DNA from: an uncultured Saprospiraceae bacterium
GTDB taxonomy: Bacteria > Bacteroidota > Bacteroidia > Chitinophagales > Saprospiraceae
Reading direction: 5' to 3'
Length of the DNA: 39,826 nt
NCBI GenBank assembly: GCA_937922815.1
Contig: CALAJP010000197.1
Span: forward strand, 1-39,826
Shown here: one piece after another, positions 2 to 11,306 of the stretch
Layout of the letters: each line of letters opens with the position of its first letter
Numbering within the stretch: position 1 is the first letter of the stretch
Position numbers and translations under genes: made by a program
Notes under the pieces: model-generated
Databases searched by the model: none
Told to the model about the DNA's origin: nothing
What the model saw: the letters and a program-made list of their open reading frames with translations, nothing else

Positions 2-373
2 GAACTTGACTCATGGACAGACGCTAAACGAGTCATAATGGTAGAAAGCAAAAGAGAATTCAAGAATGGAGAAGAAAAAGTAAGTTCACAACTTAGGTTT
101 TATATAAGCAGTAAAGAAGAGAATGCTTCCTATTTTGGAACCTGCACAAGGAATCACTGGAGCATTGAAAATCACCTCCATTGGTATTTAGACGTAGTCT
201 TTCATGAAGATTTACAACGAGTTAGGAATGATTATGCAGCTGATAATATGTCAACACTTCGGAAAATGGCTTTACAATTATTATTGAAACATAAAGGGAA
301 AGATAGCCTAAAGAAAGTACGAAAAAGAGCGGCTTGGAATGAATGCTTTTTGACCCTTAATTCTATTATTTGA
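2..373 (+). CDS. ISAs1-family transposase, C-terminal part (cut by window edge)
   Basis: This is the carboxyl end of a DDE transposase of the ISAs1 (H-repeat) type. The reading frame is open from base 2 and continues leftwards out of the window; the first visible ATG (38) is internal. The visible part contains the family block with RNHWSIENHLHW, where the Glu is expected to be the last acidic residue of the DDE triad, followed by the conserved DVVFHED and RVRNDYAADN stretches and a Lys-rich end. The gene stops at 373, and the usual short non-coding tail of the element should follow. A small hairpin (376-381 with 389-394) lies there, but I could not identify a terminal inverted repeat. Whether the copy is intact upstream cannot be judged. 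It lies next to the catabolic operon on its left. Confidence 0.85.
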   Translation, partial: ELDSWTDAKRVIMVESKREFKNGEEKVSSQLRFYISSKEENASYFGTCTRNHWSIENHLHWYLDVVFHEDLQRVRNDYAADNMSTLRKMALQLLLKHKGKDSLKKVRKRAAWNECFLTLNSII

Positions 374-483: not shown

Positions 484-1380
484 TTAACCCATTACAGCTA
501 ACGGATTTACTAAAAATGTTATATCTTCTTTTTTTATAGGTTTTGTTGCTCCTTTCTGAGAGGTAATAATTGCACCAACAGCACATGCATATTCTAAGGC
601 TTTAGTGGGTGATGTATTTTCTAATAGTTGGTATAGTAATGAAGCTAAAAAGGCATCGCCAGCTCCAACTGTATCTACAACATTAGTTCTGAACCCACTA
701 TGGTAACTAAATCTATCGCCTTTCAGTAAAACAGCTCCGTGTCTGCCTTTGGTTACACAAATTTCATTAGTGTTTGTGTTCGTAGCAATAAATTTTATGT
801 TTTTCTCCATAGATGAATAAGGTGATCCAAAAAGTGCCGCTATTTCATATAATTCGTCGTCATTTAATTTTATAAAATCTGCTTTGAGCATCATTTTATG
901 TAATAACTCCTTGTTGTAAAATGGAGCTCTAAGATTTACATCAAAAACCTTGTATTTAGCATTTTTTAATAATTCAAACAACGTTTCTTTAGACTTGATA
1001 TTTCGACAAGATAAACTACCATAAACCAAAGCATCTGATTTAGATACAAGAGATGATAGTTGATTTTCGTATTCGATATTATCCCAAGCAGATGGATTTA
1101 ATATATCATATGTTGCTGACCCTTTTGGATTTAAGGCTACTTTGGCAATTCCTGTTGAATAGTCCTTGTCTACTTGAATGAAGTCTGTGTTTATTTCATT
1201 TTTTTGAAGAAAAGAAATGATTTTTTCTCCGTCAATATCGTTTCCTACTCTACTAATTATTGTAGTCTCAAGTCCTAATTGTTTAAGTCTTAAGCCTACG
1301 TTTAGAGGGGCTCCGCCGATACTTTTACCGTTGGAGAAACAATCAAATAATACTTCTCCAAAGCAAATTACATTTTTCAT
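484..1380 (-). CDS. PfkB-family carbohydrate kinase, probable fructokinase
   Basis: A 298-residue ribokinase-fold sugar kinase, the usual length for fructokinases. The N-terminal substrate motif GGAPLNVG is at about residues 22-29 and the C-terminal PfkB signature DTVGAGDAF ends at residue 244, which makes Asp242 the expected catalytic base. The N-terminal CFGEVLFD is typical of the fructokinase branch. The ATG overlaps the stop codon of the dehydrogenase gene upstream (ATGA), so the two are translationally coupled and probably act in sequence: polyol is oxidised to a ketose, which is phosphorylated to a ketose phosphate (fructose to fructose 6-phosphate if the polyol is mannitol or sorbitol). 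It is the last gene before a terminator. Ribulo- or other ketokinase activity cannot be excluded, because substrate specificity in this family is not readable from motifs. Confidence 0.82.
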   Translation of the reverse strand: MKNVICFGEVLFDCFSNGKSIGGAPLNVGLRLKQLGLETTIISRVGNDIDGEKIISFLQKNEINTDFIQVDKDYSTGIAKVALNPKGSATYDILNPSAWDNIEYENQLSSLVSKSDALVYGSLSCRNIKSKETLFELLKNAKYKVFDVNLRAPFYNKELLHKMMLKADFIKLNDDELYEIAALFGSPYSSMEKNIKFIATNTNTNEICVTKGRHGAVLLKGDRFSYHSGFRTNVVDTVGAGDAFLASLLYQLLENTSPTKALEYACAVGAIITSQKGATKPIKKEDITFLVNPLAVMG

Positions 1381-2873
1381 AATACATTAACTTTCTCGTT
1401 CATTAATTGTAAACACTCTTGCAAAGATTTTTCTCTAATCATTTTTAATGATTTAATAAATTCCTCTTTAAAACGCTCGTTTTTAGATAAGTCTCCAAAT
1501 ATTTTTTCAATCTCAATAAATCGTACTGGGTCTTGATGAGAATATGCTGCTGCTCTAATTAATATATTACTCATATCATCTTCTATCGAATAAGTTTTGC
1601 CATTTTTATCTACCCCATCATTGTATCTACACCAAGTGGCTATCACAAAAGCTAAATGGCTAATTTGCCCTCCTGTATTTAATTGGTCTTTTAATGTTGA
1701 TAATAGAAATATTGGAACTTTAGACGAACTTTCGTAGCAGATTCGAGAGATTAAATCTTTTATATGATTATTCTTGAAGCGCATAAATAGACTCTCTTTG
1801 TAAGATTCTAAATTAAGTTCCCCTAAATCGCCTAATGTTGGACTTACTTCTATATCCATGAAATTTTTTAGAAAAGCAATAATTTCTTCATCGTTAGCTG
1901 CTTCGTCGATAGTTTCATAGCCTTGAATAGCCCCTAAAAACCCCAAAATAGAGTGTCCTGCATTTAGCAGCCTTAGTTTCATTTGCTCAAAAGGAATTAC
2001 ATTTTCGACAAATTGGACACCTGCTTTTTCCCATTTAGGACGTCCGTTAATAAAGTTGTCCTCTACAACCCATTGTATGAATGGTTCGCAAACTACTGGC
2101 CATTGATCATCGATTAGAAATTCATTATTTAACAATTCTGAATCTTCAATTACAGTAACAGGCGTAATTCTATCTACCATCGAATTGGGGAAAGAAACAT
2201 TAGCTTCTATCCAAGTGGCTAGTTGAGGTTCTGCTTTTTCGACATAACTAAGTAAGGCATTTTTAATTACTTTTCCATTTTCTTGAATATTATCGCAAGA
2301 CTGTATAGTACATCCTCCTATATTTCTTAACATTCTCAATTTAAGTGCTTGGCTTAAATACCCAAATACTGTTTTGGGAGAATTAGGGTTTTTCATATCT
2401 TCAACAATGACAGGGTTGCTATAGTCGAATTTTCCTGTGGCCTTATTTAGGTTGTATCCTCCTTCTGTAATGGTCATCGAAATGATTTTAATATCAGGAT
2501 GCGCCATTTTTTCAATAACTGCAATTGGGTTTTCTGGGGCGAATATATATTCAACAATCGAGGCGATTATTCTGGCAACATAAGAGCCATCGTGCCCTTT
2601 GACCAATAGGGTGTATAACCCATCTTGGTCTTTTAGTATATTGTATATTTTTCTATCGTAATCTAGTAGACCAATGCCGCATATACCATAGTCCAACACC
2701 CCGTATTTGTTCATGAGTTCATCAGTATAGAATGCTTGATGAGAACGGTGAAAGTTGCCAACACCAATGTGAACAATACTTGTTTTTACGGCATCTCTAT
2801 TGTATGATGGAACTAAAACACTAGATGGAATTAGTTCTAAATTTTCTTGATTGAGTTCTACTATATTTTTCAT
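1377..2873 (-). CDS. Long-chain polyol dehydrogenase, mannitol 2-dehydrogenase / fructuronate reductase family
   Basis: A 498-residue NAD(P)-dependent enzyme of the long-chain mannitol dehydrogenase family, oxidising a sugar alcohol to a ketose (for mannitol, fructose). The N-terminal Rossmann segment is HIGVGNFHRSHQAFY at about residues 35-49. The family catalytic signature KxxxxNxxH is present as Lys299, Asn304 and His307, and Asn195 (in CDN) matches the second catalytic Asn. The offset from Pseudomonas mannitol 2-dehydrogenase numbering is a constant 4 residues at all these points. Related members reduce fructuronate or tagaturonate or oxidise arabitol. A mannitol, sorbitol or arabitol role is favoured here by the neighbouring fructokinase and sugar transporter and the absence of uronate genes. 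It overlaps the kinase gene by 4 bases and lies 151 bases after the permease gene. Confidence 0.85.
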   Translation of the reverse strand: MKNIVELNQENLELIPSSVLVPSYNRDAVKTSIVHIGVGNFHRSHQAFYTDELMNKYGVLDYGICGIGLLDYDRKIYNILKDQDGLYTLLVKGHDGSYVARIIASIVEYIFAPENPIAVIEKMAHPDIKIISMTITEGGYNLNKATGKFDYSNPVIVEDMKNPNSPKTVFGYLSQALKLRMLRNIGGCTIQSCDNIQENGKVIKNALLSYVEKAEPQLATWIEANVSFPNSMVDRITPVTVIEDSELLNNEFLIDDQWPVVCEPFIQWVVEDNFINGRPKWEKAGVQFVENVIPFEQMKLRLLNAGHSILGFLGAIQGYETIDEAANDEEIIAFLKNFMDIEVSPTLGDLGELNLESYKESLFMRFKNNHIKDLISRICYESSSKVPIFLLSTLKDQLNTGGQISHLAFVIATWCRYNDGVDKNGKTYSIEDDMSNILIRAAAYSHQDPVRFIEIEKIFGDLSKNERFKEEFIKSLKMIREKSLQECLQLMNEKVNVL

Positions 2874-2987
2874 AAAATTAGAAATGTGTTAAGTTTGACC
2901 TTTAAAAATTAAACCATTTAGAGATTCCTTTTGAATGCTTTTTAGTTACTACTTTTCATTTTAAGAATCAATTTTTATAAGAGAAAA

Positions 2988-3016
2988 TACTTGTCACCAT
3001 ATTTTGATGACAAGTA
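2988..3016 (-). other. Intra-operon hairpin between transport and catabolic genes
   Basis: A 9-base-pair perfect inverted repeat (TACTTGTCA at 2988-2996, TGACAAGTA at 3008-3016, 11-base loop) begins 8 bases after the permease stop codon. On the minus strand it is followed by TATTTTC, a poor U-tract, so it is more likely a partial terminator or an RNA-stability element than a full stop. It divides the operon into a transport half and an enzyme half. The remaining bases up to the dehydrogenase start (2874-2987) show no other clear element. Confidence 0.5.
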
Positions 3017-3024
3017 CAGGGTAA

Positions 3025-3993
3025 TCATTTTCCTTCAAAGCGTTGTAATAAAACCGCAAAAATAATAATCGCTCCTTTTACTACTTGTTGTGGGTATGAA
3101 GGTACGTTTAATAGGTTTAGAATATTCCCTATCAGACCAAGAATTAATACTCCCATTAATGTATTAATAACCGTTCCTTTTCCTCCGTTAAGGCTAGCTC
3201 CTCCAATGACAACTGCAGCAATAGCATCTAATTCCCATGCCATTCCCATGTTAGGTGACCCTAGGTTTGTTCTAGAAGCAACGATAACAGCAGCTACTGC
3301 CGCTAATGAACCCGAAATAGCATAGACTAAAAATTTATATTTATTCACTTTGATACCAGAAAGTCGTGAAGCGTCTTCATTACTTCCCATTGCTATAATT
3401 AGTCTACCAAATACATTATATCTCAAAACGACCATCGCTATTATAACAATAAGAAAAAACACAATGGCTATATTCGGAATTCCGAGAAATGAATTGTTTG
3501 CAAAATTTGACATAAATTCACCACCTGCAGTATTGAAAGTAATTGGAGAACCTTTGGCGTAAATAAATGCCAACCCTCTCGCAACTGTCATTAGCGCTAA
3601 TGTGGCTATAAAGGGAGCCATTTTTTGAAATGCAACTAAGTAGCCTGCAACACTACCGAGGGCAAACCCTATAACTATGGTTGCTATAATGGCGACAGGT
3701 AAAATGACGCTGTTTACCAATATGGCAAAGGTTACTGCCAGTAAGGCGACCATAGAACCAACTGACAAGTCTATTCCTCCTGTGAGAATTACGATAAGCA
3801 TTCCTATGCTTATGATACCTATTCCAGAAACTTGTTTTAATAAATTTGATAGATTGACAGATGTGAAAAATACATCTGAAATAATTGCAGAGAATACAAC
3901 TAAAAGAACAAAAATTAATATCGTGTTGTATTTTATGAGTAACTTAACCAAGCCTCCTGGACTACTAAGTTCTTGTTTTAGATTTAAAGCCAT
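3025..3993 (-). CDS. Sugar ABC transporter permease, RbsC-like
   Basis: A 322-residue, very hydrophobic inner-membrane protein of the ribose/xylose/galactose (BPD_transp_2) permease family. The family signature GGIDLSVGSMVAL follows the second membrane helix, and the segment GGASLNGGKGT lies near residue 265. It forms the membrane channel for the ATPase encoded just upstream (12-base gap) and receives substrate from the binding lipoprotein two genes upstream. Its length matches RbsC (about 320). The N-terminal cytoplasmic stretch is short and starts with MALNLKQEL. RbsABC-type systems carry pentoses, hexoses or polyols, and the operon enzymes point to a sugar alcohol or ketose here. Only one permease gene is present, so a homodimeric channel is expected. 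Confidence 0.9.
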   Translation of the reverse strand: MALNLKQELSSPGGLVKLLIKYNTILIFVLLVVFSAIISDVFFTSVNLSNLLKQVSGIGIISIGMLIVILTGGIDLSVGSMVALLAVTFAILVNSVILPVAIIATIVIGFALGSVAGYLVAFQKMAPFIATLALMTVARGLAFIYAKGSPITFNTAGGEFMSNFANNSFLGIPNIAIVFFLIVIIAMVVLRYNVFGRLIIAMGSNEDASRLSGIKVNKYKFLVYAISGSLAAVAAVIVASRTNLGSPNMGMAWELDAIAAVVIGGASLNGGKGTVINTLMGVLILGLIGNILNLLNVPSYPQQVVKGAIIIFAVLLQRFEGK

Positions 3994-4005
3994 AATTTTA
4001 TATTT

Positions 4006-5529
4006 TTAAACTGTTACTTTTAAGGGTTCACCGATAGAGTACCGTAATATGTTTTCTTCCGAAAATTCTTCTTTAGATAATTCGCCGTAAATAGTACCTT
4101 CATGCATCACTAAAATTCGATCTGCAATTCCCATTATTTCTGGCATATCAGAAGAGATTACGATTATACCTACGCCCTTTTCAGCTACTTCATTAATAAG
4201 GTTATAAATTTCTACTTTTGCTCCTACATCTACTCCCCGTGTGGGTTCATCAATCAGGATAACTTCACTGTCAATGCTTAACCATTTCGCTAAAGCGACT
4301 TTTTGTTGATTTCCCCCACTTAGATTTTTGACATCTACCTCTGAACTGGGCGTTTTAATGTTTAATTTTTTAATTAGCGATTGAACATTTTCATATTCTA
4401 CATCGGTGTTTATAAAACCAAACTTATCTGAAATAGGGTCAAAACTGGTTACACTAATATTCTTACGAATAGACAAAGGTAAAAATACACCTTCTTCTTT
4501 TCTATCTTCAGAAACGAAACCAATTTGGTGTCCGACTGCTTGTACAGGAGATTTGGTATTGATTTTTTCCCCATTAAGAATTAGCTCACCAGATTTTTTT
4601 GCAAATTCCCCAAAGATGAGTTTAGCGGTTTCCGTTCTACCACTTCCTCCAAGTCCAGCAATTCCAAGGACTTCACCTGGTCTTACTGAAAAGGAAACGT
4701 CATGAACAAGGTTGTATTTCCCCGAGAGGTTTCTAACTTCAAAAATGGGTTCAGAACCAATAGTAGCAGTTCTTTCGGGATATAAATCTTTCAATTCTCT
4801 ACCAATCATTAATCTAATTACTCCATCTGTGTCGATTTCTGATGTCGGCATACTACCAGTATCTACTCCGTCTTTAAGAACAGTTATAGAATCTGCTATT
4901 TTAAATATCTCTTCTAAATGATGAGATATGTATATTATAGAAATCCCTTCTTTTTTGAGACGAAACAGGTTGTTAAATAATTTTTGAATATCAGTAGGGT
5001 CAAAAACGGTAGTGGGCTCATCAAGAATTAATACTTTGGTGTCCTCAGAAAGTGCTTTTGCTATCTCAACTACTTGTTTTTGAACAATGCTTAAATCTCT
5101 TACAATTGCTTTTGGGTCAATGTCAAAGCCCAAAGATTGAATGAGTTCCTGAGCATCATTTATAAGTTCTTTCCAATTCATCCAAAACTTACTTGCACCT
5201 AATTTGTGCAAGTAAATATTTTCAGCAACAGATAAATCATTTACCAAAGACAACTCTTGATAAACCACACTGATTCCAAGGACTTGACCGTCATGCGTGT
5301 TTTTTGGAGTTATTTCCTTACCATCTAAAAGTACCTTTCCTGAATCTTTTTGATGAACACCACTCAGAATTTTAACTAAAGTAGACTTTCCAGCACCATT
5401 TTCACCTAAAAGAGCATGGATTTCACCTGGCCTTACTTTTAGATTAACATTTTCTAATACAGAAACGACACCAAAGCTTTTAGATATTCCAGTCATTTCA
5501 ACTCGATATTCACTATTTGAATTTTGCAT
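4006..5529 (-). CDS. Sugar ABC transporter ATP-binding protein, RbsA/MglA-like, two ATPase domains
   Basis: A 507-residue fused double ATPase, the standard architecture of RbsA/MglA/XylG. Domain 1 has Walker A GENGAGKST near residue 43, the family-typical degenerate signature LSIVQKQ, and Walker B VLILDEPTT. Domain 2 has an eroded Walker A (GLGGSGRTE, lacking the Lys), an intact LSGGNQQK signature and Walker B VILIDEPTRGVD. The degenerate second Walker A is normal for this family, with one competent site per subunit. It powers uptake through the permease encoded 12 bases downstream and lies 20 bases after the binding-protein gene. Family membership is certain; the substrate is inferred only from the operon. 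Confidence 0.93.
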   Translation of the reverse strand: MQNSNSEYRVEMTGISKSFGVVSVLENVNLKVRPGEIHALLGENGAGKSTLVKILSGVHQKDSGKVLLDGKEITPKNTHDGQVLGISVVYQELSLVNDLSVAENIYLHKLGASKFWMNWKELINDAQELIQSLGFDIDPKAIVRDLSIVQKQVVEIAKALSEDTKVLILDEPTTVFDPTDIQKLFNNLFRLKKEGISIIYISHHLEEIFKIADSITVLKDGVDTGSMPTSEIDTDGVIRLMIGRELKDLYPERTATIGSEPIFEVRNLSGKYNLVHDVSFSVRPGEVLGIAGLGGSGRTETAKLIFGEFAKKSGELILNGEKINTKSPVQAVGHQIGFVSEDRKEEGVFLPLSIRKNISVTSFDPISDKFGFINTDVEYENVQSLIKKLNIKTPSSEVDVKNLSGGNQQKVALAKWLSIDSEVILIDEPTRGVDVGAKVEIYNLINEVAEKGVGIIVISSDMPEIMGIADRILVMHEGTIYGELSKEEFSEENILRYSIGEPLKVTV

Positions 5530-5549
5530 ATCAGTTATGTTTTTGGTGA

Positions 5550-6629
5550 TTAAAATAATGCCTCAGGGTTGTAATGTTGTGCTGCATTATCTTTAGTGAT
5601 TAATAAAGGTGGAGTGTAAGAAGTTTTTGCAAAATCTCTCTTTCCATTCATATATTGTATAGAATATTGAACTGCATTTTTGCCAATTTGAACAGGACTA
5701 TTCATCGCCGTACAGCCATAAAAGTCAGAATCCATGATGTATTTAATAGCTTCTTTTTGTCCATCGGCACCAGCTACAATCAATATGTCATCGGTTTTTC
5801 CTGCTTGAGCGATTGCTTTGATGGCTCCCAAAACGCAAACATCCGATTCTGTGATTACTACATTAATGTCAGGGTGTGCCACTAAAACATCTTCCATTGC
5901 TTTAAGTCCTCCTGCATAAGACCAGTTCGTGTACATTTGAGTTTTTACATTTAGGTTGATATGACCTAATGTTCTCAATTGTTCTTCAGTAATGCCTTGT
6001 AGTAACCCTTGTTTTCTAGTTCTTCCTACTGGGTTACCTGCATTACCGCTTAATAAAGCAATATTCATATCTTTTTTGCCAAACTGTTTTGCCAACCATT
6101 CTCCCGCTAGCATACCATTTGCCAAATTGTTAGATTGTACCGTAGTTACATATTCTGCATCAGGACTGATAGAACTATCTATAATAAAGACAGGAATTCC
6201 AGCTTTTTTTGCAGCCTTTGTAACTCCAACTAATGCGTCTGGATCTAATGGGTTTAATAATAAAACATCAACCCCTTTGGTTATTAAATCCTCAACGGCA
6301 GCTACTTGTTTATTAATGTCGTTTTGGCCGTCTGCGGATAAGAATACCATTCCATTTTTTTCGACAGTTTCTTTTATGCTTTTTTGTAGTGCTTGATAAT
6401 AAGGGGCGTTTAGAGATGGTGTACAATACCCTATTTTTTTTCCTTTTAAGTCAATTTTACTGTCAATCACTTCTCCTATGCTTTCGTTAGCGCTAGCAGA
6501 ATTGCTATTGTTGGAGGCTGAAGAATTGTTGGGTTCGACACAACTACCGAAAAATAATGTTAGTAAAATAATAAATGCGAAGGGCTTAGAAAACGCATTT
6601 AATACTGATTGTATAGTGTTTTGTTTCAT
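5550..6629 (-). CDS. Periplasmic sugar-binding lipoprotein, RbsB-like
   Basis: A 359-residue substrate-binding protein of the periplasmic-binding/LacI-fold type (Peripla_BP_4). A 29-residue signal with lipobox FFGSC predicts lipidation at Cys30, followed by a Ser/Asn/Ala linker to about residue 55. Family features include KKIGYCTPSLNAPYYQ near residue 65, DGQNDINKQVAAVEDLI near 100, GVDVLLLNPLDPDAL near 120, and the C-terminal hinge segment with AVQYSIQYMNG. Binding proteins of diderms are usually soluble; a lipidated form keeps it at a membrane, as is common in Bacteroidota. It delivers substrate to the permease and ATPase encoded downstream. Preference for a polyol over ribose is an inference from the downstream dehydrogenase. 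Confidence 0.88.
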   Translation of the reverse strand: MKQNTIQSVLNAFSKPFAFIILLTLFFGSCVEPNNSSASNNSNSASANESIGEVIDSKIDLKGKKIGYCTPSLNAPYYQALQKSIKETVEKNGMVFLSADGQNDINKQVAAVEDLITKGVDVLLLNPLDPDALVGVTKAAKKAGIPVFIIDSSISPDAEYVTTVQSNNLANGMLAGEWLAKQFGKKDMNIALLSGNAGNPVGRTRKQGLLQGITEEQLRTLGHINLNVKTQMYTNWSYAGGLKAMEDVLVAHPDINVVITESDVCVLGAIKAIAQAGKTDDILIVAGADGQKEAIKYIMDSDFYGCTAMNSPVQIGKNAVQYSIQYMNGKRDFAKTSYTPPLLITKDNAAQHYNPEALF

Positions 6630-6669
6630 AATGTGTGGTATAATTGGTTAGAAATTTTATGTTTTAGGG

Positions 6670-7587
6670 TTAAAATAGGGTGATATCTAATTGGATAACA
6701 GTTACTTTTTTCTCAGGATTCCACATTCCCATAACTTCAACAGGAATAGTGTGGTTTCCAATTTTTACTTTTTTAGACAAAGCTAAAGCTGCATTGATTA
6801 CATTTCCTCTACCTTCAGTGTAGAATGTTTTGTCGGTAAAAAATGACCATGCACCACCAACAATCATGTCTAGGTTGTAATCTTTTTTCTGCCATAGGTT
6901 TTGTCTTATCTCTAGGTAGTTTGTCCACGAATTGTCAATGGTTCCGTCACTATTCCTAACGAAATCTTTTTGACCTCCTCCTAATATTGTTGCTAAGTAT
7001 AATAGTGTTTTAGGGTTGGGTTTGTAACCAAAGTTTAAATCAACAAAATTATGGTTTTGGTCTCTATCAAAACTCCAATAGTTTAGTTCTTCTCCTCGTT
7101 CTGCAACACCTGTAAAGTTGTTGTGAGACACTGCTTCTACAAAAAATGATTCTGAAAATCGATATACTGCGTAGATAGAAACTTCTTTGTAGTTTGCATT
7201 AACTCTAAAGTCATCGTTTGGATCCCTTGGTGTACCATTATCGTTGGTAACGTCGATACTGTTGAAGCCTGCAGCTCCCCATATACCAGCGGTAAATTTT
7301 TTATCTCGACTGTTATATTCCATGTTAGTAGCGAATATGGGGGTCTCACTCACTATAAATCCATGCCAAAGATGCATGTTTTTAAGATGGACTCCGACAT
7401 CAAATGCTTTGTAGTCATCTTCCATTTTTTCTTCTTCTTGAGTTGTCGGTGATCTAGTTTCCATTTTTTCATCTTGGGCTTCAATATTCATTGATACACA
7501 CAACAATAATAAGATAAAAAAAGAAATTCTCGAAAACGTAGTGCCTTTATAGGTTCTGTTTTGAAGGGGCATTTTTGTTAGTTTCAT
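6670..7587 (-). CDS. Predicted outer-membrane beta-barrel protein, first gene of the sugar/polyol operon
   Basis: A 305-residue exported protein. Residues 1 to about 38 form a signal peptide ending in NIEAQ, then a charged Glu/Lys/Thr linker, then alternating amphipathic strands rich in aromatic residues. The protein ends in QLDITLF, a terminal aromatic residue on a beta-strand, as expected for BAM-assembled barrels. I do not recognise a named family. As first gene of the operon, 40 bases before the binding lipoprotein, it could be the substrate-specific outer-membrane channel, replacing the SusC/SusD pair usual in Bacteroidota. The start at 7587 gives MKLTKMPLQ and a long n-region; the internal Met6 is an alternative. 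The operon has no other outer-membrane component. Confidence 0.6.
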   Translation of the reverse strand: MKLTKMPLQNRTYKGTTFSRISFFILLLLCVSMNIEAQDEKMETRSPTTQEEEKMEDDYKAFDVGVHLKNMHLWHGFIVSETPIFATNMEYNSRDKKFTAGIWGAAGFNSIDVTNDNGTPRDPNDDFRVNANYKEVSIYAVYRFSESFFVEAVSHNNFTGVAERGEELNYWSFDRDQNHNFVDLNFGYKPNPKTLLYLATILGGGQKDFVRNSDGTIDNSWTNYLEIRQNLWQKKDYNLDMIVGGAWSFFTDKTFYTEGRGNVINAALALSKKVKIGNHTIPVEVMGMWNPEKKVTVIQLDITLF

Positions 7588-7701
7588 AAGTAGAGGTTTA
7601 AAATTAATATGTTCGATTTATCTAAGACGAATAACAAGGTTCTTTCTTGTTTTAGTTACTTATTTTTTGGTAGTAGGTTTTGTTTGAGTAGTATTCTTAT
7701 T

Positions 7702-7720
7702 AAACGTATTAAGTACGTTT
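7702..7720. promoter_or_regulatory. Operator palindrome, copy 1 (operon-proximal)
   Basis: AAACGTATTAAGTACGTTT: perfect 7-base arms around a 5-base centre. Copy 2 at 7880-7898 differs at only two of 19 positions, and the flanking bases are also shared (T before, GTT after). A duplicated near-perfect palindrome in a divergent regulator/operon spacer is the expected form of the binding site of the neighbouring dimeric winged-helix regulator. Confidence 0.75.
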
Positions 7721-7879
7721 GTTGTGTAAATCTAGTAAACTTTTATTCTTAAACAAACTTTTCTTGAATAAAAATGAAAATTTATATACTTAAAAGATTG
7801 AAAAGAATGTTTTTTTCGATATTTAATTCTATTTGAAGGTTCTTTTGTGAAATAATACATATATAGATTTATGCTAAAT

Positions 7880-7898
7880 AAACGTTTTAATTACGTTT
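7880..7898. promoter_or_regulatory. Operator palindrome, copy 2 (regulator-proximal)
   Basis: AAACGTTTTAATTACGTTT: 6-base arms around a 7-base centre, the second copy of the motif at 7702-7720. It lies 146 bases upstream of the regulator start, placed for autoregulation. Centre-to-centre distance to copy 1 is 178 bases, close to 17 helical turns at 10.5 bases per turn, so both sites would face the same side of the DNA. Confidence 0.75.
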
Positions 7899-8044
7899 GT
7901 TTTGTGTTGTTGTAAATAATTGATTGTTTAGATTTAGTTGAGATTCAAAAAAAAGCAACTAAGTAAGCTTTTATCGTTTATCATTCTAATTATAATCTCA
8001 ATTGTGTTAGTTTTATATTCGATAAACAAAACTTAGTTTGTAAA

Positions 8045-8785
8045 ATGGATTTTAGAAGCATATCAAACATATCTGTTGACTGTGTGATTTTTAGCCTTGG
8101 TTCGGATGGGATAAGTGTTTTTTTGAAGAAAAGAATACTCCATATGTTTAGTGATAAACTTCCAAGCATAGATGACTGGATTTTGCCAGGACAGAATGTG
8201 TTGAAAAGTATGCCTATAGAATATTCAGCGGATCAGGTATTTAAAGAGAGTGTGGGATTAGAAAACTCTTACAAAAAACAGTTTACGACATTTGGAAATC
8301 CCGATAGAATTAAAAGTAAAAAGGATGAATTATGGTTGAAAAGTAAAGGTTCAGAAGCAAGGATAATATCCATAGCGTATTATTTTCTTTTGCCTAAAAA
8401 TAGATTGGATGAATCAATTTTTAATACTGCCTCAAATGGCTGGTTTCATATTGATAACTTACCTGAATTAGGTTTCGATCATAGAGAAATAATAGAAAAA
8501 GCTTTTCAAGAATTAAAAAATAAAGCATTTTCTCAGCCCTTGATTTTTGAATTATTACCAAGTAAGTTTACGCTTAATGAGTTACAGTTTGCGTACGAGT
8601 CATTGTATGGTCTGACGATAGATAATAGGAATTTTCGCAAAAAAGTTATTAATAAGCCATACATTATTTCTTTAGAAGAGAAAAGAATTATGGAAAATGC
8701 TAAAAAGCCGGCGAAAGTATTTATGTTTAGTATGGATGTCTATAATCAAACCAAAAACAAAAAAAGCGTTATTTTACCACAATAA
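8045..8785 (+). CDS. Nudix-fold winged-helix transcriptional regulator, NrtR/AraR type
   Basis: A 246-residue protein with the two-part layout of NrtR-type regulators: an N-terminal Nudix-like domain (about residues 8-150) and a C-terminal winged helix (about 155-230, with the segment FTLNELQFAYESLYG followed by IDNRNFRKKVI, highly typical of this group). The Nudix-box region, about residues 49-73, lacks the catalytic Glu cluster (REUxEE), so the domain probably binds a ligand instead of hydrolysing one. Members of this group control NAD synthesis or, in Bacteroidota, sugar use (AraR- and XylR-like). Its divergent position beside the polyol operon and the two shared palindromes point to local control by a sugar or sugar-phosphate ligand. 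Repressor versus activator cannot be decided from sequence. Confidence 0.85.
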   Translation: MDFRSISNISVDCVIFSLGSDGISVFLKKRILHMFSDKLPSIDDWILPGQNVLKSMPIEYSADQVFKESVGLENSYKKQFTTFGNPDRIKSKKDELWLKSKGSEARIISIAYYFLLPKNRLDESIFNTASNGWFHIDNLPELGFDHREIIEKAFQELKNKAFSQPLIFELLPSKFTLNELQFAYESLYGLTIDNRNFRKKVINKPYIISLEEKRIMENAKKPAKVFMFSMDVYNQTKNKKSVILPQ

Positions 8786-8877
8786 GTAATACTTCGTTTG
8801 TTGTTTGAACAGAAGGAGTCTAAAGCTTGTTAGTGTTTAGTTATTCGTATTAAATTCAAATTTTAAATCCTAAAACT

Positions 8878-9405
8878 GTGAATAAAACATTTATAATAAT
8901 ACTTATTGTTGCTTTGTTTTTTGTAGGGAAATATTTTTATATGAAGCCATCGCAAGGAACAGGAGAATCTGCATTTGAATTTGAGGCCAAATTAATAGAT
9001 GGTTCTTCGTTTAAGTTGTCAGACTTGAAAGGGCAGTATGTTCTTGTCGATTTTTGGGGGAGTTGGTGTGGTCCTTGCCGAAAAGCGAATCCTAAATTGG
9101 TGCAGCTTCATAATCAATTCAAGGATACAAAATTTGAAGATGCGTCAGGGTTTCAAATATTATCTATTGGAATTGAAGAAAGCGAATTGAGGTGGAAAAA
9201 TGCTATTCAGAAAGATGGTTTGAATTGGAAATATCACGTTTTAGACAAGACGGAGAGTTTACGATTCTTTAATTCTCCGATTGCTACACAGTTTGGAATT
9301 AAAGAAGTTCCAACCACATTTTTATTAAATCCCGATGGACTTATCATTGCTACAAATGCTACGGCTGAAAAAATGGCAGCTACATTATCTGAAAAAATAC
9401 GCTAA
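8878..9405 (+). CDS. Membrane-anchored thiol-disulfide oxidoreductase, TlpA/ResA-like
   Basis: A 175-residue thioredoxin-fold protein. Residues 2-21 form one hydrophobic helix (signal anchor), so the domain faces the periplasm. The active site WCGPC is at residues 63-67 (Cys64, Cys67), preceded by VLVDFWGSW, and the cis-Pro loop is in EVPTTF. Layout and length match TlpA/ResA-like reductases that maintain cytochrome c or other exported thiols. The start is a GTG at 8878; no in-frame ATG precedes the hydrophobic segment, and the next Met is at residue 22, which would remove the anchor. It stands alone, 92 bases after the regulator gene and 140 bases before grpE. No cytochrome maturation genes are nearby, so its partner is unknown. 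Confidence 0.85.
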   Translation: MNKTFIIILIVALFFVGKYFYMKPSQGTGESAFEFEAKLIDGSSFKLSDLKGQYVLVDFWGSWCGPCRKANPKLVQLHNQFKDTKFEDASGFQILSIGIEESELRWKNAIQKDGLNWKYHVLDKTESLRFFNSPIATQFGIKEVPTTFLLNPDGLIIATNATAEKMAATLSEKIR

Positions 9406-9419
9406 ATAACTGATTTTAC

Positions 9420-9441
9420 TGTCAGATTGACCCTATCTTTG
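9420..9441 (+). promoter_or_regulatory. Probable grpE-dnaJ promoter with upstream inverted repeat
   Basis: TATCTTTG at 9434-9441 matches the Bacteroidota -7 consensus TAnnTTTG. Directly upstream is an imperfect inverted repeat TGTCA-GAT-TGACC (9420-9432), in the -33 to -15 spacer region where an operator or alternative recognition element could sit. No TTTG element is seen at the usual -33 distance. The leader to the grpE ATG would be about 100 bases. Confidence 0.4.
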
Positions 9442-9545
9442 CGATGGCTTAAAAGTTGCCTACCTAAAAATAGACTTTTCCTTCTTGATACAACTATTTC
9501 AAGAGGTAAAACCAATTTGATTAAAATTAAAAAAGGTGTCTTAAA

Positions 9546-10118
9546 ATGACAGAAGAAGAAAAAAAAGTAAGCGAGGAAGTCGAAAATGAAACGACTGAAA
9601 CGGCAGAAGAACAAACGGTTCCTGAACAGGAAACTGAACAACCTTTGTCAGAAACAGAAATACTAACACAGAAAAACGAAGATTTGAAACAACAAGTCAA
9701 CGAATTAAAAGATAAATATACTCGTCTTAATGCCGATTTTGATAACTTCAGAAGACGTATGGCTAAAGAAAGATTGGAAGCAAAAACAAGTATTACTAAA
9801 GGTGTTATTGCAGAATTTCTTGAAGTAGCGGATGATTTTGATAGAGCTAAAGCAAATGCGGATGACGAATCAAATGAAGAAGTATTTTCAGAAGGGGTGA
9901 ATATTGTTTTCAATAAGTTTTTCAAAATATTAGAATCTCGTGGTGTGAAAGCGATGGAATCTAATGGTGCTGATTTTGACACTGATTTTCACGAAGCTAT
10001 TACAAAAATTCCTGCTGGAGATGAATCTATGAAAGGTAAAGTAATTGATACCATCCAAAAAGGATATTTTTTAAATGAATCTATCATTCGACATGCCAAA
10101 GTTGTAGTCGGAGAGTAA
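9546..10118 (+). CDS. grpE: Nucleotide exchange factor GrpE
   Basis: A 190-residue cytoplasmic co-chaperone that releases ADP from DnaK. The N-terminal 30 residues are highly acidic and disordered (Glu/Thr-rich), followed by a long coiled-coil helix (about 30-85) with the conserved KYTRLNADFDNFRRR, then the beta-wing domain ending GYFLNESIIRHAKVVVGE, close to the family C-terminal consensus. Length is typical (about 190). dnaJ follows after 30 bases in the same direction, the standard pair; dnaK itself is not in the window. The ATG at 9546 is the only start that keeps the whole acidic N-terminus. A candidate promoter lies about 100 bases upstream. Confidence 0.96.
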   Translation: MTEEEKKVSEEVENETTETAEEQTVPEQETEQPLSETEILTQKNEDLKQQVNELKDKYTRLNADFDNFRRRMAKERLEAKTSITKGVIAEFLEVADDFDRAKANADDESNEEVFSEGVNIVFNKFFKILESRGVKAMESNGADFDTDFHEAITKIPAGDESMKGKVIDTIQKGYFLNESIIRHAKVVVGE

Positions 10119-10148
10119 TCTTATAATTTTAATCGTTTTTATATCATT

Positions 10149-11306
10149 ATGGCAAAAAGAGATTATTACGAGGTGTTAGGTGTTGCTAAGACTGCTACAG
10201 CTCAAGAAATGAAAAAGGCATACCGAAAAATAGCTATGAAATATCATCCAGATAAAAACCCTGGTGATAAATCGGTAGAAGAAAAATTTAAAGAAGCTGC
10301 AGAGGCTTACGAAGTGCTTTCTGACGAAAATAAACGTGCCAAGTACGACCGTTTTGGTCATGCAGGAGTAGACGGTAATTTCGGAGGTGGAGGAAGATCG
10401 GGTTCTATGGAAGATATATTTTCACAGTTTGGAGATATATTTTCTGACGGAAGTCCTTTCGAATCTTTCTTCGGCGGTGGTGGAGGCGGAAGACGCTCGA
10501 GCCGTGGCGGAGGACAAAGAGGAACAAACCTACGTATCAAATTAGCACTGACTTACGAAGAAATTGCAAAAGGTGTAACCAAGAAAATTAAGGTTAATAA
10601 AGATGCTAAGTGTGGTACTTGTAATGGTTCGGGAGCTAAAAATGCTCAGGCAGTAAGAACTTGTAATACTTGTGGTGGACAAGGAGTAGTTCGTCAGATA
10701 AGATCTACTTTTTTGGGGCAAATGCAGACAACAGGGACTTGTCCGTCTTGTAATGGTAAAGGAAATACGATTATAGATAAATGTGGAACTTGTAGCGGTG
10801 CGGGTACGACTAAAAATGCAGAAACGATAGAAATTGAAGTTCCTGCAGGAGTTTCTGATGGAATACAATTATCTATGCAAGGCAAAGGTAATGCGGGTAA
10901 AAACGGTGCTCCTTCTGGTGACTTGATTATACAAATTGAAGAAAAAGAACATGACCTTTTCGAAAGAGACGGGAATAATCTTTTGTACGATTTATATATC
11001 AGTTTTCCTGATGCTGCATTGGGTACTTCAGTAGAAATCCCAACCTTGGATAGTAAGGTGAAAATTAAAATACCTCCTGGTTCTCAGAGCGGAAAAGTAT
11101 TCCGTTTGAAAGGAAAAGGATTTAAAGATATCCAATCTTATCAAATAGGAGACCTTTTGGTTCATGTTAATATTTGGACGCCAAAAGAATTAACTCGAAC
11201 TGAAAAAGAATTGTTAGAGAAATTGAGAACGATGGAAAATATCGTTCCTAATCCTGGTAAAAATGAAAAAGGTTTCTTCGATAGAATGAAGCAATACTTT
11301 AATTAA
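10149..11306 (+). CDS. dnaJ: Chaperone protein DnaJ
   Basis: A 385-residue type I Hsp40 that delivers clients to DnaK and stimulates its ATPase. The J domain occupies residues 1-70 with the essential HPD at 33-35. It is followed by a Gly/Phe-rich linker (about 75-130, with a poly-Gly run), then four CxxCxGxG zinc repeats ([32 protein letters not shown]) at about 155-220, then the two beta-domains of the client-binding C-terminus. All zinc ligands are present. It sits 30 bases after grpE, and a strong hairpin terminator begins 24 bases after the stop, so grpE-dnaJ form a closed unit. Confidence 0.97.

Follow-up and report, generated by a model that had tools for sequence, protein, structure and literature searches.

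Twin palindromes between a Saprospiraceae mannitol/fructose operon and a Nudix-type regulator gene: very likely landing sites of a sugar-sensing repressor

Operon, regulator and twin palindromes

The window, a contig of 39,826 nucleotides from an uncultured Saprospiraceae bacterium, contains the gene set of the mannitol utilisation operon of marine Flavobacteriia, with the ABC transporter, mannitol dehydrogenase and fructokinase genes all lying in the same direction behind a gene for a predicted outer-membrane beta-barrel (Table 1). A spacer of 457 bp separates this leftward operon from a rightward regulator gene and holds both palindromes. The predicted structure of the barrel protein has a pLDDT of 77 and found only weak porin matches in the fold comparison; the protein is a candidate mannitol porin, and homologues occur at 37 of 67 related loci (within the best 80 of 207 relatives). 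At the contig edge, a frame at 38-373 (+) that by eye resembles a transposase end adjoins the last gene of the operon.

Table 1. Features of the operon, the spacer and the regulator gene in the window
Feature	Position	Strand	Basis or remark
PfkB-type fructokinase	484..1380	-	domain match
Mannitol 2-dehydrogenase-type polyol dehydrogenase	1377..2873	-	domain match
Sugar ABC transporter permease (BPD_transp_2)	3025..3993	-	domain match
Sugar ABC transporter ATPase	4006..5529	-	domain match
Sugar ABC transporter substrate-binding protein (Peripla_BP_4)	5550..6629	-	domain match
First operon gene, predicted outer-membrane beta-barrel, ~300 aa	6670..7587	-	no Pfam/NCBIfam match at E 0.001
Operator A (operon side), AAACGTATTAAGTACGTTT	7702..7720	.	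sequence; conserved at orthologous loci; 6 bp downstream of putative -7 box
Putative operon -7 box, TAGATTTA	7727..7734	-	5/6 fixed positions of TAnnTTTG; position conserved across loci
Putative operon -33 box, TTTG	7754..7757	-	19 bp from -7 box
Operator B (regulator side), AAACGTTTTAATTACGTTT	7880..7898	.	sequence; second site in 48/62 orthologous loci
AraR/NrtR-type regulator, 246 aa	8045..8785	+	degenerate Nudix domain; winged helix with Asn at AraR-179 position

A sequence-only reading of this DNA had drawn attention to two 19-mers in the spacer, 178 bp apart and seen nowhere else in the window. Both are present as it described, mismatched at two positions, with their centres 178 bp apart (16.95 turns at 10.5 bp per turn), and AAACGT-N7-ACGTTT has exactly two copies in the window, A and B. 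The mean number of copies in dinucleotide shuffles of the window was 0.02, and two copies were reached in 0 of 100 shuffles. Over the whole genome assembly (3.88 Mb, 96.6% complete) the pattern again occurs at A and B only, while further matches to the pattern of the earlier reading, with up to three mismatches allowed, each carry at least two mismatches. The shorter core ACGT-N7-ACGT is found at 15 places in the assembly, A and B included, versus 26 for a control pattern; three of the 13 other places were inspected together with one two-mismatch match, and all four lie within reading frames. An even-centred, Crp-like reading of A and B was ruled out, the centre being a single base.

The winged-helix domain of the regulator matches PF21906 at 68.6 bits (cut-off 27) and PF19368 at 33.9 bits (cut-off 23.8), and Pfam returned no Nudix match to the protein at E 0.001. 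Its best solved relative is AraR of Bacteroides thetaiotaomicron, and a structural model of the regulator (pLDDT 91.5) matches AraR with a Z of 25.2 and an rmsd of 2.1 over 211 residues. The earlier statement that the protein lacks the catalytic Nudix glutamates is right for three of the four, when aligned through AraR with the signature quoted in the partial text of PMC4666351, and wrong for E68, which remains. The arginine and the first glycine of the Nudix box are replaced as well, and G71 remains. R30, R88 and H146 correspond to the arabinose-contacting residues R34, R86 and H131 of AraR. Assignment to the NAD-type NrtR proteins fails, with an NCBIfam NtrR score of 77.3 against a cut-off of 400, and no NAD gene lies among the eight Pfam-searched genes at 484-9405, the other seven of which are sugar, barrel or thioredoxin genes. 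With its winged helix, broken Nudix box, three contact residues and 7-bp-spaced palindrome the protein falls into the AraR branch of the NrtR family. It is not an AraR orthologue proper (Asn at 179, ACGT half-sites, a mannitol-type operon and a separate clade) and represents, as judged from its sequence, an orthologous group that is new among the Nudix-type sugar regulators, of which AraR and XylR are known.

Conservation of the sites and of a promoter element beside related regulators

Used as the sole query, the window regulator found no relative in the species genome collection. A profile from a three-sequence protein alignment, scanned against 84,980 species genomes, gave 207 relatives, and the best 80 were analysed. 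Sixty-seven of these 80 loci are of the window's type, defined by Asn179, and represent 66 distinct ones because L072 and L206 are the same contig. With neighbour-gene identity cut-offs of at least 40% for the kinase and at least 44% for the rest, a fructokinase is present at 60 of the 67 window-type loci, a dehydrogenase at 44, the barrel gene at 37 and ABC genes at 28 (best 80 of 207). By title they belong mostly to Flavobacteriaceae (Zobellia, Cellulophaga, Winogradskyella, Polaribacter, Maribacter, Flavobacterium), and others come from Dyadobacter, Ancylomarina and a Saprospiraceae.

The sequence-only reading had asked for the motif to be sought near orthologous regulators. In this comparison (best 80 of 207), AAACGT-N7-ACGTTT occurs exactly 34 times in the 28,386 bases upstream of the regulators, at 34 of the 80, versus 6 times in the 1,466,916 other bases of the loci; for AACGT-N7-ACGTT the counts are 51 upstream versus 7 elsewhere, and all other half-site gaps from 3 to 13 gave 0 upstream matches. 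These fixed-pattern counts are not circular, since protein similarity alone selected the loci and the window supplied the pattern, while the 96 versus 12 obtained with a weight matrix built on 39 sites of those very regions is partly so. Four of the six exact sites elsewhere stand before a mannitol operon at the other end of the locus and one before a permease gene; the sixth, at L187, is without explanation. Upstream of the regulators at the 13 non-window-type loci of the 80, the motif is absent. A second site was found at 48 of 62 loci, a count that omits L195, L201, L157, L209 and L210, versus a chance expectation of ~2% per region (best 80 of 207). Preservation of the motif near orthologues, the AraR-like geometry and the frequent second site thus favour the proposal that the neighbouring AraR/NrtR-like regulator uses the two sites as its operators. 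Because like sites recur with the same regulator and sugar genes across many Bacteroidota, the palindromes very likely serve a sugar-sensing repressor as landing sites.

In a search for a wider regulon, the exact pattern is present in 15 of 18 genomes at 1-3 copies each, close to the level of a reversed control, and nothing is therefore claimed beyond the local operon. Within the family of the window the pairing looks rare. A close dehydrogenase was found in 41 of the 398 genomes searched, and the regulator lies alongside only in the window and in G415, where the single site is weaker and a clear -7 box is missing. This regulator was not found in the fetched stretch at the 39 other dehydrogenase loci, some of them on short contigs; four of these loci (G451, G392, G551, G396) have ABC-type operons.

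The -7 box consensus of Bacteroidota is TAnnTTTG. On the operon strand, 56 of 67 rows have it next to site A, and in 50 the gap is exactly 6 bp (best 80 of 207), versus a chance rate of 3.8% of random positions; with one mismatch allowed the figures are 59 of 67 versus 21.9%. The search for the box covered distances of 3-12 bp from the leftmost over-threshold site. In six Flavobacterium rows (L175, L182, L188-L190, L192) this leftmost site, at 125-130 bp from the regulator, is probably site B; the cut contigs L195 and L201 had no site, and L157, L209 and L210 were read at the mannitol-operon end. A TTG is located 15-23 bp above the -7 box in 35 of 67 rows, a count without a control. The distance from operator A to the listed start codon is 115 bp in the window versus ~30 bp in most barrel-gene relatives, and the second site of barrel-type relatives is mostly weaker and positioned 40-67 bp before the regulator. 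A search for a regulator-gene promoter relative to site B found no position. The prevailing 6-bp distance between the -7 box and site A suggests that repression would occur by covering the transcription start, and we read site A as the operator of the operon and site B as an autoregulatory site.

Residue 179 and the operator half-site

In the AraR-DNA structure, as given in the partial text of PMC4666351, the operator is GTGT-N7-ACAC, Lys179 contacts the outer G at -7, and Asn181 together with Lys184 contacts inner bases. The window regulator has Asn at 179 and keeps Asn181 and Lys184, and its half-site is ACGT with the N7 gap unchanged; residue 184 is Arg in most window-type relatives. Among 124 regulators, in two of which residue 179 was not called and among which duplicates may remain, ACGT-N7-ACGT lies upstream of 48 of the 71 Asn179 regulators but of none of the 51 that have Lys or Arg there, and GTGT-N7-ACAC upstream of 0 of the 71 and 21 of the 51, respectively. 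At other gaps from 3 to 11 the same 124 gave 0 ACGT sites, and 1, 5 and 1 GTGT sites at gaps of 5, 9 and 11. The strict ACGT-N7-ACGT pattern is missing upstream of 23 of the 71 Asn179 regulators, some of which have weaker sites, and L029, outside the group, is a counter-example with Asn179 and without an ACGT site. Given that the loci are related, Fisher values for the association between residue and operator are not evidence in themselves. In the tree, all 28 of the 28 sampled rows of the Asn179 group fall into a single clade, and the Asn179/ACGT association reflects mostly one evolutionary switch. A wider radiation of Nudix-type sugar regulators in Bacteroidota, comprising mannitol/fructose, GH94 and alpha-glucan/glycolysis groups in which residue 179 sets an ACGT or a GTGT operator, is a model to which we give an even chance. 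If true, one substitution could re-aim a repressor.

L221-L233 make up a sister group with Arg or Lys at 179, and 8 of the 13 carry GTGT-type N7 sites at 32-35 bp ahead of the gene. The neighbours of L222 are a GH94 phosphorylase and a sugar transporter and that of L229 is a TonB receptor, and L233 is similar by eye; the group is probably a cellobiose-type regulator. A further related group with Lys179 (L042-L048 and L073-L075) carries GTGT-N7-ACAC in 8 of 10 scanned loci. Its neighbours include phosphofructokinase, GH31, alpha-amylase and aldehyde dehydrogenase genes as well as a weak BadF-type match, and it possibly regulates alpha-glucan and glycolysis genes.

Proposed mechanism, alternatives and known relatives

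Computed gene content, fold, pocket residues, operator geometry, site conservation and promoter placement lead us to propose, with a probability of about 0.82, that the regulator, a member of the AraR branch of the NrtR (Nudix-related) family, works as a sugar-responsive repressor, acting at A and B, released by a sugar, and blocking both the operon and its own gene. We infer binding, repression, autoregulation and the inducer as follows. Without inducer, regulator dimers would occupy operators A and B. The dimer on A, placed 6 bp downstream of the putative -7 box and over the expected start, would prevent transcription of the barrel-ABC-dehydrogenase-kinase operon from starting, and the dimer on B would let the regulator limit its own gene. 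Uptake and oxidation of mannitol would then bring a sugar, most likely fructose and next mannitol, into the closed-down Nudix pocket (R30, R88, H146), upon which the winged-helix domains would shift and both operators would be freed.

A Crp-like palindrome is found upstream of Bacteroides arabinose, xylose and fucose operons in the partial text of PMC3878776, raising the alternative that another factor, such as a Crp-like protein, recognises the palindromes, which would adjoin the Nudix gene by chance. However, that motif (TATGTTnTAnAACATA) is even-centred and differs in its letters, the ACGT sites track the regulator across operons of differing content, and they are not upstream of 13 sister-group regulators, most of which have GTGT-type sites; we find this alternative scarcely credible. 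Activation of the operon by the regulator, which is compatible with the sequence, is very unlikely given the position of site A downstream of the -7 box (exact box in 56 of 67 rows), which fits a block, and the release of AraR from DNA by its sugar (PMC4666351, partial text). The sequence-only reading had further suggested a DNA loop from helical phase, and repression might need such a loop to join the dimers at A and B on one helix face. The ~17 turns in the window, the recurrence of 178-179 bp in Wenyingzhuangia and Flavicella and the commonness of two sites speak for it. By contrast, the spacing is 147-153 bp in most Flavobacteriaceae and 87, 137, 160-164, 176-179, 187, 200, 255, 278 or 303 bp elsewhere, so that spacings (~150, 163, 178, 255, 303) differ by non-integral turns. 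Helical phase was not significant for 20 hand-picked lineage spacings at 10.5 bp (R 0.28, p 0.20), at 10.0 to 11.0 bp (p 0.13 to 0.84) or for 9 spacing classes (p 0.48). A loop is unnecessary, as site A by itself already reaches over the expected start region, and we consider the suggestion unlikely.

Returning to the sugar-released repressor, its inducer is probably fructose or mannitol, and we favour fructose because it is the metabolite common to both operon types; judged by gene content, fructose metabolism is the theme that the two types share. The regulator had been described as dedicated to sugar alcohols, which agrees with the mannitol-type dehydrogenase at 44 of 67 loci but not with 20 of 67 that have a fructokinase and no dehydrogenase in the fetched stretch, all titled Flavobacterium (best 80 of 207). 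At L182, the sole annotated dehydrogenase-less locus, a tagatose/psicose 3-epimerase is encoded together with a LamB porin and a FucP-type transporter. That mannitol or another polyol is the inducer rather than fructose is a possibility we place somewhat below even: the 44 dehydrogenase loci point that way, AraR senses the sugar degraded by its own operon, and a 2015 study reportedly found that mannitol induces the orthologous Zobellia operon. Such mannitol induction would be compatible with fructose too, however, and the Flavobacterium loci, with the epimerase and FucP-type transporter of L182, argue against a polyol.

AraR (BT0354; structures 5bs6, 5dd4, 5ddg and 5deq) and XylR are NrtR-family sugar regulators in Bacteroidetes (PMC4666351, PMC3878776; partial texts). 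AraR shares with the window regulator a Nudix-like domain joined to a winged helix, a degenerate Nudix box, the residues R34/R86/H131, two operators before the target operon and half-sites 7 bp apart. The two proteins are 36% identical in the structural alignment, and the window's has ~13-15 extra residues after the R86 position. They differ in residue 179 and half-sites (Asn with ACGT in the window, Lys with GTGT in AraR), in operator arrangement (178 bp apart versus tandem sites 3 or 42 bp apart in the partial text of PMC4666351) and in operon content (mannitol/fructose versus arabinose genes). XylR (BT0791), likened here by description only, is also a Nudix-type regulator clustered with its predicted target sugar genes, with xylose instead of mannitol/fructose. 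NrtR of Shewanella oneidensis (3gz5/3gz6), an ADP-ribose-responsive NAD repressor, has the same two-domain fold (Z 21.4) but is a weaker match than AraR, and the neighbours in the window are sugar genes.

The earlier impression that a Nudix-type regulator of sugar alcohols had not been described held up in titles and abstracts, where none appeared for mannitol or fructose, most subscription papers being outside the scope. For Zobellia galactanivorans, Groisillier in 2015 reportedly described a mannitol operon of ABC transporter, mannitol dehydrogenase and fructokinase, and is said to have named no regulator or operator for it. Zobellia uliginosa L179 has these genes in the order reported for Z. 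galactanivorans, together with the regulator and two sites. If the repressor reading is right, a switch is named for mannitol/fructose operons in at least 22 named Bacteroidota genera (hand count of titles), Nudix-type sugar sensing reaches beyond pentoses, and a change of one residue becomes a way to test how such regulators choose their DNA sites. It would also provide a compact regulator with a strong 19-bp operator at a well conserved promoter position. Brown algae have two storage carbohydrates, of which mannitol is one (PMC9296495, partial text).

Some mannitol operons, at L155 (7765-9477) and loci like it, carry a permease-like protein of 570 aa without a Pfam/NCBIfam match in the place of the ABC transporter. 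Beside the mannitol operon of Zobellia L209 and L210 there is a second dehydrogenase, along with a second regulator in which the pocket arginine (AraR R86) is replaced, and in Maribacter L157 a second-type regulator that keeps this arginine stands alone in the stretch. No operator was found before the second-type regulators of L157, L209 and L210 (loci around 8350-10730), which possibly serve another polyol.
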